From contig JAJCYO010000077.1 of assembly GCA_029262875.1 (NCBI GenBank), forward strand, positions 1 to 32,046: a stretch of 32,046 nt of DNA, in the 5' to 3' direction. A model generated the notes under the pieces. The model saw only the letters and a program-made list of their open reading frames with translations, made no database searches and was not told the DNA's origin. Source of the DNA: Flavobacteriales bacterium. GTDB lineage: Bacteria; Bacteroidota; Bacteroidia; Flavobacteriales_E; Vicingaceae. A program made the position numbers and the translations under genes. Below are positions 6,727 through 9,975 of the stretch, piece after piece. Every line of letters starts with the position of its first letter. Position 1 is the stretch's first letter.

Positions 6727-7056
6727 TTATTTTGCTTTTCTTGTTAGTTTCACTGCTTTCACCAAATCGTCCCAAGTGGTTTCTAGCTCCTTTAAAAACT
6801 CCTCTCCTATTTTGGTTAATTGATAGTACTTTCTTGGTGGACCAGATTTTGACTCTTCCCATCTGTAAGAAAGTAAACCGGCATTTTTTAGTCTAGTTAA
6901 CAAAGGATAAAGTGTTCCCTCTACCACAATGAGCTTTCCTGCTTTTAGTTTCTCTATTATTTCTGAAGGGTAAGCTTCTCCGCTTTTTAAGATGGATAGA
7001 ATACAATATTCTAATACTCCTTTTCTCATCTGTGCTTTTGTATTTTCTATCTTCAT
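6727..7056 (-). CDS. PadR family transcriptional regulator
   Basis: A 109-residue winged-helix regulator of the PadR family. Visible family features are MRKGVLEYCILSILKSGEAY at the start, then YPSEIIEKL, the recognition-helix region VVEGTLYPLLTRL and the wing GLLSYRWEESKSGPPRKYYQ. PadR proteins bind as dimers to inverted repeats, often in their own promoters. I start at the ATG at 7056 because MKIENTKAQMRKG is the usual N-terminus; the frame extends ten codons further to 7086, but this would run into the promoter. The PspC gene follows 24 bases downstream and is the likely target. An inverted repeat overlapping the promoter upstream is a good candidate operator. Confidence 0.94.
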   Translation of the reverse strand: MKIENTKAQMRKGVLEYCILSILKSGEAYPSEIIEKLKAGKLIVVEGTLYPLLTRLKNAGLLSYRWEESKSGPPRKYYQLTKIGEEFLKELETTWDDLVKAVKLTRKAK

Positions 7057-7079
7057 ACTTGCATTACATATTAAATTAC

Positions 7080-7119
7080 AATACAAAGATATAGGTTTTA
7101 AATTGTATTATGCAATACA
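7080..7119 (-). promoter_or_regulatory. padR-pspC promoter with candidate PadR operator
   Basis: On the minus strand TATCTTTG (7084-7091) matches the -7 consensus, with TTG (7113-7115) 21 bases upstream. The perfect inverted repeat TGTATT-4 nt-AATACA (7104-7119) overlaps the -33 box, and a third AATACA half site (7080-7085) overlaps the -7 box. This is the layout expected for autorepression by PadR. Confidence 0.6.
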
Positions 7120-7167
7120 TAGTACTAAGGTAATTCATAACTGACTGATTCACAGATAGAATAATTT

Positions 7168-7215
7168 TAAATTAAATGTTGATTATTTCTTTTTTACCTA
7201 AGAATTTAGGTTTTT
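7168..7215. repeat. 48-bp direct repeat, distal copy (copy B)
   Basis: This copy differs from 9297-9344 at one base. Read on the minus strand it encodes the same C-terminal peptide KPKFLGKKEIINI and stop as the sanA gene, but it lies after the M48 gene and belongs to no intact gene. It contains the inverted repeat ACCTAAGAATTTAGGT followed by Ts on the plus strand. Confidence 0.9.
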
Positions 7216-7240
7216 ACAAACAAAAATTAGATGGATAATA

Positions 7241-9211
7241 TTACCTAAACTTCTTATCTTTTAGGTGAATCTTATTTTTTAGTTCGAAATTTAATTGATC
7301 AAATAATACCGATCTATATTTCAATGAGACCTCACCACCATAATACCTCGTCTTCATCACACCATTTTCTACCTCTCTTAAACTAGAAATATAAACCTCA
7401 AGAAATCTAGTTCTTTTAGTCTGTTTTAATAAATCTGAATAATTCATATTCATTGCTTCCATATACTCTTCAATTTTCCCTTCTCCTTTTCTACTCTCCA
7501 CATAGAGATAATTAATAAATTCTATCTCATTAACATCATACTCGTAAAAAATTCTAATATATCGGGGGTCAAGTATATGCAGTTTTGTTTTACTCCCTTT
7601 CGTTATTGTCGTATAAAAAGAAAATAATTCCAACTCTTTAAGAAGAGTAAATTTTTCCAAATCTGAGTATTTCAAATTAGTAAAATACATCGATTTTCTT
7701 GTAGGAAAACTTGTTATAACACTATCAAATAATTGCAACAGGGCAGTTGTGTCACTCAAACCATGGAACCTTATTGGAATCTTTTCACTTCCTTGTTTTA
7801 TATATCCTTTTAAATCATTATAAACTAAAAGTTTATTATTGCTCAACTTCTTTTGAACACTATCGTTCATTAGATCAATAGCGAACTGTCTGAATTCAAT
7901 ATTCTCATGCTCTATATATTTTTTAAGTAATTTATTTTTGGCTTCTTTATTATTTATTCGACTTAATGCATTAGATAAATCACATTCCTTACATTTCAAA
8001 ACCTCTCCAAGTTTAGAGTAAAAATCAAAGGCTTGTTCATTTGTAACAAACTTAGGAGTATCCTTCCAATAGAATTTCGCATTTACTTCATTAAGATCCT
8101 TCGGCCCCATAGCGAAAATATCTAAATCAAATTTTTCAAATAAGTTAGATTCCATTTTTGGTTTAGGTTTTTTCGTCATATAATCAACAAAATACCTTGA
8201 CGTATAAAAATTTTCTTCCCATGAATCTGAATTTATGTAACATTTTCTTCTAATTGATTCCATTAAATAATAAACATAAATCGAATTATCTGGATCTATA
8301 AGATGGAACTTAAAAGCTTTCTCAAGACATTCATTAAACTCAAAGTTGAATAAGTGAGCCTTTAAGATTTCTGGTTTACTTTTTTCTTTAAATTTTTTAA
8401 ATTGCTCCTTTCCAATCAAAAATAAACTACCAGACTCTTTACTGTGTTTTCGAAAGAATTGGGTAAAATTTTCAAGTCTCTCCTTAGAAAGAGGGTGAGT
8501 TGTACTCTCAATTTCATCTTTATATTTTGATTGACGAACCTGCTTTTTTTCCAATCTTTCCATTATTCTATATGAACTCAACAGTCCCTTAACATCATAT
8601 CCAGATTGATACAGCCATTCCAAAGCCAATGAGTCAGATTCTACCTCCATTTCAATAGAAAATTGTCGTTTTCTTTTTTTCCCAATATTAAAAAGTTCAA
8701 TATTAAATCTACCTTTTTCTTGTTGAACAAATAAGTGCAATGAATGCCGTTTATAATAATGTGCCAATTCATGAGCCATAATAGCAGCAATAGTGGCTTC
8801 ATCATGAACATACCCAAATAAACCAATATTAAAGAAAGTATATCCAGAACCTGTCATAAACGCGTTATAACTCCCATCCCGAACAAGATAAGCATGAACG
8901 CCTTTATCTTTCTTTAATTCCTCTGGCATAACTTTTTCAAGTATCTTATTCAAGTAATTTTCGAATTCTTCCCAGTCTCGATATGTTTGCCCCTCAGAAA
9001 CAATATTTGAAATCGCCATTGCCTGACCATCAGCATATCGATAGGTCATCCTTTCATATTTTCCAATTCTATAAAAATCAGGTAATCCTTTATAAATATG
9101 GCTTCTTAACTCAGGAATATCAATATCAGATAATTTTTGCTCTATTTCTAACTGAGATACAGCTATTTCTGGAATTAAAAAGAGCAAAAGATATAAGCAA
9201 AGTATTTTCAT
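7241..9211 (-). CDS. M48 family metalloprotease, exported
   Basis: A 656-residue protein with an N-terminal signal peptide (MKILCLYLLLFLI... to about residue 19) and an M48 zinc protease domain. The zinc site is HELAH (His147, Glu148, His151), with the third ligand Glu189 in EVESD. Related exported M48 proteases (BepA/YfgC type) process or degrade misfolded outer membrane proteins. The roughly 440 residues after the protease domain are not recognised; they are charged and lack obvious TPR repeats. The ATG at 9211 is chosen because it directly precedes the signal peptide, and because a good promoter lies just upstream; an earlier ATG at 9262 would sit inside that promoter. The gene is flanked by the two 48-bp repeats and may have arrived separately from its neighbours. 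Confidence 0.88.
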   Translation of the reverse strand: MKILCLYLLLFLIPEIAVSQLEIEQKLSDIDIPELRSHIYKGLPDFYRIGKYERMTYRYADGQAMAISNIVSEGQTYRDWEEFENYLNKILEKVMPEELKKDKGVHAYLVRDGSYNAFMTGSGYTFFNIGLFGYVHDEATIAAIMAHELAHYYKRHSLHLFVQQEKGRFNIELFNIGKKRKRQFSIEMEVESDSLALEWLYQSGYDVKGLLSSYRIMERLEKKQVRQSKYKDEIESTTHPLSKERLENFTQFFRKHSKESGSLFLIGKEQFKKFKEKSKPEILKAHLFNFEFNECLEKAFKFHLIDPDNSIYVYYLMESIRRKCYINSDSWEENFYTSRYFVDYMTKKPKPKMESNLFEKFDLDIFAMGPKDLNEVNAKFYWKDTPKFVTNEQAFDFYSKLGEVLKCKECDLSNALSRINNKEAKNKLLKKYIEHENIEFRQFAIDLMNDSVQKKLSNNKLLVYNDLKGYIKQGSEKIPIRFHGLSDTTALLQLFDSVITSFPTRKSMYFTNLKYSDLEKFTLLKELELFSFYTTITKGSKTKLHILDPRYIRIFYEYDVNEIEFINYLYVESRKGEGKIEEYMEAMNMNYSDLLKQTKRTRFLEVYISSLREVENGVMKTRYYGGEVSLKYRSVLFDQLNFELKNKIHLKDKKFR

Positions 9212-9232
9212 AAAATAGAAGAGAGTCCATTT

Positions 9233-9263
9233 CAAAGCTAACAATATCAACTTGGATTCCAAA
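9233..9263 (-). promoter_or_regulatory. Promoter of the M48 protease gene
   Basis: On the minus strand TTTG (9260-9263), a 19-base spacer and TAGCTTTG (9233-9240) match the Bacteroidota consensus exactly at both boxes. The expected start site leaves a leader of about 15-20 bases before the ATG at 9211. It lies inside the repeat-bounded segment, so the segment carries its own promoter. Confidence 0.7.
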
Positions 9264-9296
9264 AAAATCCTACTATCAAAAATTAATAATACTCGA

Positions 9297-9344
9297 TAAA
9301 TTAAATGTTGATTATCTCTTTTTTACCTAAGAATTTAGGTTTTT
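9297..9344. repeat. 48-bp direct repeat, sanA copy (copy A)
   Basis: This copy forms the last 13 codons and stop of the sanA gene plus a few bases beyond. The single difference from 7168-7215 falls in a third codon position (GAG here, GAA there), so both encode the same peptide. Confidence 0.9.
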
Positions 9345-9975
9345 TATGTATAATATAGAGGTCAATTACTGCTTTCGTTTTCGCAAAATATTCTCGAACT
9401 CGAGTTTTTAATGAGTACTTTTCTGGTGGATCTTTTGCAGCAAACCCCACAGCATCTATTTCATACTTTGCAGCAATAAATAATGCACGCTCAACATGAA
9501 ACCGTTGTGAAACAATAATAAACTTACTTTGTCCAAATACTTTTTTACACCTTACCACAGAATCTAAGGTTCTAAATCCTGCAAAATCGAGTGTAATAGC
9601 ATTTTCTGGAACGCCTTTTTCTATCAATGCTTGTAGCATTTGTTTGGGCTCATTGTATTCTTTTAGACTATTATCACCACTTACAATGATGTGTTTGATT
9701 TTGCCAGTATGATACAACTTAGCTGCGGCATCAATCCTATACTTAAAATATAAATTAGTTGTTCCTCTTGTTGTATATCTACTTGTCCCTAATAGTAAAG
9801 CTACATTATTATCTTTAGGAGTATTAGATACAACATCATAAACATTCTCTTTAGCTGAATGGATAATTATCCAATTAGAAAAAATAATAAAACCTATTAA
9901 CAATAATGTTGCACCAATCGTCCATTTGTTAAAAAAGAGTTTTTTTATTTTGATAAATAGTGACTTGATCTTCAT
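9301..9975 (-). CDS. sanA: SanA/YdcF-like DUF218 membrane protein
   Basis: A 224-residue protein with a single N-terminal membrane helix (about residues 19-37) and a periplasmic DUF218 domain. Motifs shared with SanA are VALLLGTSRY, FKYRIDAAAKLYHTGKI, IVSGDNSLKEYNEP, then LDFAGFRTLDSVVRCKKVFG and VSQRFHVERALFIA. SanA in enterobacteria affects envelope barrier function (vancomycin exclusion at high temperature); the biochemical reaction is not known. The gene follows the UbiA gene by 18 bases and is probably co-transcribed with it. Its last 13 codons are duplicated downstream of the M48 gene, so its 3' end looks like an insertion site that was restored. Family assignment is firm; a role in the envelope is inferred. 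Confidence 0.93.
   Translation of the reverse strand: MKIKSLFIKIKKLFFNKWTIGATLLLIGFIIFSNWIIIHSAKENVYDVVSNTPKDNNVALLLGTSRYTTRGTTNLYFKYRIDAAAKLYHTGKIKHIIVSGDNSLKEYNEPKQMLQALIEKGVPENAITLDFAGFRTLDSVVRCKKVFGQSKFIIVSQRFHVERALFIAAKYEIDAVGFAAKDPPEKYSLKTRVREYFAKTKAVIDLYIIHKKPKFLGKKEIINI

Follow-up and report, generated by a model that had tools for sequence, protein, structure and literature searches.

How did a single metallopeptidase gene come to lie between two copies of the end of its neighbour? The locus that raises this question is in a stretch of 32,046 bp (the window), which makes up the whole of contig C77 in a draft genome of 3.94 Mb and 173 contigs (G000). The gene order on the minus strand is a ubiA-type gene, a sanA-like gene (9301–9975; 224 amino acids, DUF218, PF02698), a repeat, an M48-family metallopeptidase gene, a second repeat, a padR-type regulator gene (6727–7086), which is the next gene downstream in the ancestral order, and pspC. 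The upstream repeat copy (9297–9344) and the downstream copy (7168–7215), both read on the minus strand, are direct repeats of 48 nt each and are identical at 47 of the 48 positions. Given only the base composition, a pair like this would arise by chance about 1e-16 times per window. The upstream copy consists of the last 13 codons of sanA, the stop codon and 4 nt more – the functional 3' end of the gene. The sole mismatch is GAG in the sanA copy and GAA in the downstream copy, a synonymous difference. Comparison of the copies thus agreed with an initial annotation of the window, which had described two 48-bp repeats with a single, synonymous mismatch around the M48 gene, one of them being the functional end of sanA.

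The segment between the repeats (7216–9296, minus strand) is 2081 bp long, and the M48 gene is the only recognised gene in it. Read from an ATG (7241–9211, minus strand), this gene encodes 656 amino acids with a HELAH motif and a hydrophobic, signal-like start; the longest reading, from a TTG, reaches 9262. It matches PF01435 with 60.9 bits, well over the curated cut-off of 20.3, and so belongs to Peptidase M48. The promoter consensus in Bacteroidota is TTTG-N17-23-TAnnTTTG, and the spacer before the gene reads TTTG, 19 nt, TAGCTTTG (9263–9233, minus strand), a candidate promoter that fits this consensus; a scan of the same spacer for sigma-70-type promoters gave no site.

The initial annotation had read the locus as the insertion of a cargo gene at the 3' end of sanA with the gene end restored, and had proposed aligning the sanA–padR interval from related genomes. 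This alignment found empty sites. Thirteen other genomes of the genus were compared, and 12 intervals were readable, as G004 has only a weak match to sanA. Ten of the 12 have no gene in the interval (G001, G003, G005, G006, G007, G008, G009, G010, G011 and G013); G010 has about 85 extra bp directly before padR, and the contig of G013 ends within padR. One more has a different gene, so the M48 gene is missing at this site in 11 of the 12 genomes. The interval in G030, from another genus, is likewise without an insert. The different gene, in G002 (L074, 3355–3711), is a small antisense gene of 118 amino acids that looks HTH-like by eye. A different gene between the same repeats had been envisaged, and this was not what G002 contains: no long repeats and no sanA-end repeats were found around its small gene, which suggests that genes have entered this interval along more than one route. 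The region upstream of padR (window 7054–7167, TAGTACTATGTATTGCATAATACAATTTAAAAC) is strongly conserved in the genus and is probably the PadR operator and promoter.

The comparison also polarises the two copies. The sequence past the downstream copy in the window is the ancestral sanA–padR flank. The downstream copy, being continuous with this flank, is the displaced original end of sanA, and the upstream copy is the new functional end. Past the stop codon, the two copies diverge after 4 nt. On the other side, the 70 nt before the downstream copy align to the matching part of sanA only as well as shuffled sequence does: 726 of 1000 shuffles reach the score for the window's own sanA, and 141, 797 and 686 of 1000 for sanA of G001, G006 and G009. 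As the flanks have no further likeness to sanA, the repeat ends are sharp. This bears on the main alternative given initially, in which sanA was duplicated in tandem and one of the copies was then mostly lost. Such a history would account for direct repeats of a gene end, but nothing like sanA precedes the 48 bp of the downstream copy, and the M48 gene and the insert-free relatives would be left unexplained. We consider it very improbable. The insertion itself was open to contradiction by an M48 gene at this site throughout the relatives or by traces of a longer sanA duplicate, and neither was encountered.

The one other genome with an M48 gene in the sanA–padR interval is G012 (a Vicingus serpentipes MAG). 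Its gene is the nearest to the one in the window, at only 59–60% identity, and behind it lies a decayed copy of the sanA end, with 38 of 54 aligned columns matching G012's own sanA end and 2 gap columns. When this remnant was compared to thirteen sanA ends, 0–2 of 500 shuffles reached the score for ten of them, but 116, 290 and 50 of 500 did so for those of G008, G005 and G003. Because the shuffle test failed for these three, a control was added with 20,616 windows, each 66 nt long and taken from 11 loci of the genus. The three best of these windows overlap one place, the sanA end of G006. G012's own sanA end scores 20.5 against the remnant, a score that 8 of the 20,616 windows reach: three overlapping windows in the G006 sanA end, one in the G011 sanA end, and four overlapping windows in an unrelated part of G008. 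The sanA gene of G012 (L064, 2251–2925) has an internal TAA in a frame that is otherwise conserved, either a real lesion or an assembly error.

An M48 gene with a duplicated sanA end is therefore present in two lineages; the duplication in G012 is old, and that in the window is either young or has been homogenised. The search for further genes flanked by sanA ends, also suggested at the outset, was productive in part: it gave the decayed copy in G012, while no second near-intact core was found in the other 45 genomes of the family, a pattern that a decayed copy like G012's escapes. The second lineage also speaks against an artefact of assembly. The draft state of the genome, with the window being a whole contig, makes an artefact conceivable, but the separate assembly of G012 has the same order with its decayed copy, and the G+C content of the segment (29.6%) is close to that of sanA (30.5%), though below the window mean (33.5%). 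An artefact is scarcely credible.

The M48 genes themselves have a patchy distribution. At an E value of 1e-40, the subfamily is found in 10 of 46 genomes of the order, all from one family, with G029 and G039 just short of this limit; at 1e-3, which admits weaker general M48 matches, 63 of 100 relatives have one. A tblastn search of the M48 gene against plasmid and phage collections (E 1e-5) gave nothing. Together, the confinement to one family and the lack of plasmid or phage matches suggest that the donors were probably relatives. A second M48 site lies beside a TPR–gyrA gene pair in G001, G004, G006, G010 and G011 (L086, L085, L089, L084 and L090). A TonB receptor gene is on the other side in G006, G010 and G011, while in G001 and G004 the contig ends before the other side can be read. 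The M48 gene is broken in G011. The TPR–gyrA site is empty in G000 (about 250 bp), G002, G003 and G005, and is not readable in G007, G008, G009, G012 and G013. No repeats like the sanA pair were found around the second-site genes, and seven M48 relatives elsewhere have only weak pairs of direct repeats (70–80%), none like the sanA pair. Relocation of the M48 gene from the gyrA site was considered and rejected: the two types are only 30–43% identical, so a simple move is not shown, though the site is empty in G000. Both types together were seen in none of the 14 genus genomes, which may well be chance given the numbers. The M48 family comes and goes inside this bacterial family.

Do the two occupied sanA sites record one event or two? 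The copies in the window share the same lineage-specific letters and differ at 1 of 48 sites, versus 5–12 of 48 between the copies and the sanA ends of eight relatives, which points to a duplication that is young or has been homogenised. The adjacent flank differs from that of G001 at 7 of 50 sites; set against 1 of 48, this gives a Fisher p of 0.06, which is no more than suggestive. In the M48 tree, G000 and G012 group together with support of 100/100. The concatenated tree without the TonB gene places G000 with G001 and G002 (ultrafast bootstrap 88); wider groups around G000 that exclude G012 have 78 and 71, and the group that includes G012 has 97. With the TonB gene, G000, G013, G008 and G012 form a group with support of 100. 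Two entries are moderately favoured by the tree without TonB and not by the tree with it. The M48 proteins of G000 and G012 are 59–60% identical versus 67% for their TPR proteins, and the corresponding values at the gyrA site are 57% versus 83% for G001–G006 and 64% versus 78% for G001–G010. The G000–G012 pair is thus, if anything, closer than expected under vertical descent.

These data can also be read as a single old insertion, made in an ancestor that both lineages share and passed on vertically, followed by several exact losses and by gene conversion between the copies in the window. Both lineages have the same site, a single M48 clade and a sanA-end copy behind the M48 gene, and only two losses are needed if the tree with TonB is right; in the tree without it, the groups that exclude G012 are moderately supported (71, 78 and 88), and about four losses are needed. 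Conversion is a requirement of this history, since at the 27% decay of the G012 copy the probability of at most one mismatch in 48 is 5e-6. The sanA–M48 spacers of the two genomes are not alike (282 of 300 shuffles score at least as high), which counts against a common origin but is uninformative if the spacers are saturated. We regard a single old insertion as doubtful, and as deserving serious consideration.

The end of sanA has a further feature, a palindrome in each repeat that had been put forward as a possible recombination site. It is present in both copies (9325–9340 in the sanA copy and 7196–7211 in the downstream copy) as ACCTAA-GAAT-TTAGGT, with perfect 6-bp arms and a 4-nt loop; with one mismatch allowed, the whole genome has one further ACCTAA-N4-TTAGGT site. 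The CCTAA/TTAGG arms are unbroken in the sanA ends of 13 of 13 genus genomes. As relatives without the insertion have the palindrome, it was not brought by an element. In the 13 genomes, 92 columns of sanA have the same degenerate amino acid throughout, and the codon is invariant in six of these; three of the six are P213, K214 and L216, the CCT AAA. TTA of the inverted repeat. The codon between K214 and L216 is TTC in 11 of 13 genomes, while TTT dominates at other invariant phenylalanines. Codon use in these related, and hence not independent, sequences is suggestive of a DNA- or RNA-level constraint on CCTAA-N4-TTAGG that is older than the insertion. The inverted repeat folds weakly as RNA (–5.2 kcal/mol; 5 of 200 shuffles are as good), and a scan found no intrinsic terminator at the repeat, so that this role was rejected. 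A XerCD dif-like site was dropped, as the arm spacing does not fit.

Integrative elements and CIMEs that use the 3' ends of genes restore the gene end and leave direct repeats. The sanA locus has both – direct repeats resembling attL and attR at a restored gene end, and an empty, attB-like site in 10 of the 12 readable relatives – and no recombinase or recognisable element. The statement in the initial annotation that the segment holds no recombinase stands: a Pfam scan of 25 window genes, which was also the scope of the search for serine recombinases, gave no match to a mobility family (two of these genes matched nothing, and the gene cut by the right end of the window was left out), and on the 13 sanA contigs, some only 3–4 kb long, no Phage_integrase match and hence no tyrosine recombinase was found. 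The exact 23-mer of the core had 0 matches in viral contigs. An integrative element proper, with its own recombinase or with a recombinase-bearing relative at the site, is not what these searches found. Nor does the locus look like a cassette array beside an integron integrase, as it holds a single gene and no integrase was found on the contig.

A remnant or non-autonomous, CIME-like element that carries only cargo, moved by a recombinase in trans through a 48-bp attachment site at the sanA end, would agree with the exactly restored gene end, the sharply bounded repeats, the inverted repeat in the core, the 11 Phage_integrase matches elsewhere in the window's genome and the use of the same site in two lineages. 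It is at odds with the lack of a recombinase in the window's segment and of a Phage_integrase on G012's contig, with the lack of the exact core in viral contigs and of a second near-intact core in the other 45 genomes of the family, and with the arms, which are 4 bp apart where tyrosine recombinases usually need 6–8. We judge it unlikely. Two lineages with nearly the same duplicated stretch nevertheless fit a site-specific mechanism too, which counts against the homologous route preferred below. A more specific proposal is quite unlikely: the sanA 3' end would serve as a site-specific docking point on the constrained CCTAA-N4-TTAGG core, and in each of the two lineages a recombinase in trans would have made a separate insertion of one M48 gene. 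If true, this would describe a cassette made up solely of one gene plus the end of the gene that it targets.

We tentatively prefer, at a little less than an even chance of being right, an accessory single-gene islet that homologous or one-sided homologous recombination brought in and perhaps also removed. In this reading, an accessory M48 gene was inserted between sanA and padR, and the final 48 bp of sanA were duplicated in the process: the upstream copy now terminates sanA, and the original has been displaced 2.1 kb downstream. Most likely, the incoming DNA came from a relative in which M48 already followed sanA, and its homology to the resident sanA let it pair there. Its far side could then have been joined illegitimately at a point just before the end of the resident sanA, a case of homology-facilitated illegitimate recombination; or, in the way suggested for Salmonella wzy, a circle with M48 and one repeat could have recombined with the 48 bp already present. 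Later recombination between the repeats would give exact loss and a clean empty site. That the DNA came from a relative, that RecA-type recombination was at work and that the exchange is reversible are parts that we infer, as is the preference for this route over a recombinase in trans. A length of 48 bp is short for RecA. The 59–60% identity of the nearest M48 gene also weighs against this explanation, as it means that the donor is not among the known genes, and a windowed comparison of the window's sanA with relatives gave no clear foreign tract, and thus no mosaic pointing to a donor.

Other direct repeats were sought as pairs of at least 35 nt, 0.3–9 kb apart, in 571,221 bases, made up of the window, the starts of 40 contigs and one other stretch. 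The scan gave 33 such pairs. One is the sanA pair, an array on contig C37 accounts for 20, and the remaining 12 are spread over nine other stretches. Six of the nine were inspected by eye and hold paralogous, tandem or internally repeated genes (L165, L174, L175, L186, L192 and L193); no second case like sanA was recognised in the stretches inspected, L169, L179 and L182 being left out. The C37 array (L199; positions 6570, 7402, 8105, 8847, 13543 and 14049) is different in kind from the sanA pair. Its genes are short and apparently unrelated, and each begins with nearly the same stretch of about 50 bp (ATGCTAAATAGACTATTCATACTACTAATTGGAATTGC..., a lipoprotein-like signal peptide), which often overlaps the stop of the preceding gene. 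A similar array is found on contig C19 of G006 (L212; positions 4353, 4699 and 6340), and single copies of the array start on contigs C115, C127 and C167 of G000, C89 of G010 and C85 of G013. The minus-strand genes of C37 have another common start (MKKLLTILI..), L214 and L165 show two more, and close to one end of C37 there is a fragment of Arm-DNA-bind_5 (recombinase N-terminal). From its sequence, the C37 type looks like a cassette array whose junction repeat encodes a signal peptide.

The sanA–padR interval is a polarised case with four states – empty, filled and young, filled and old, and filled with another gene – and it shows a single accessory gene entering a core-gene junction with no visible mobile element and with the neighbouring gene left intact. 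Gene-turnover hotspots without mobility genes are described as frequent (PMC5635113), and they too hold accessory genes between core genes; that study is a statistical one of 80 species, whereas the present case is one interval with three states. One-sided homologous entry that leaves an old gene end downstream has been proposed for the T6SS immunity arrays of Vibrio cholerae (PMC5361080). There too a new gene enters by one-sided homology and the displaced old end lies downstream, but whole immunity genes are left, versus 48 bp of sanA. The microcin H47 island of E. coli is a repeat-flanked segment without its own recombinase (PMC3191183); it differs as a 13-kb multi-gene system with extensive imperfect repeats, for which excision and integration have been demonstrated.

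The closest known case appears to be the wzy locus of Salmonella Typhimurium DT8/DT30, where a single gene between direct repeats is lost and regained (PMC12074656). Both loci have one gene between direct repeats and between two core genes (the deletion unit of wzy is 2558 bp) and an exact empty site in close relatives, and for wzy too the mechanism and the recombinase are undefined. Its authors leave RecA versus an integrase open, and cite minimal lengths of 23–27 bp and 44–90 bp for two RecA routes (PMC12074656). The wzy repeats are 113 bp, identical and intergenic, while those at sanA are 48 bp and hold the end of a coding gene; excision, circle and reversion have been demonstrated for wzy (PMC12074656), and the sanA locus is known from sequence alone. 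If the exchange at sanA is reversible, it would add an example from the Bacteroidota to repeat-flanked loci without a recombinase such as wzy.
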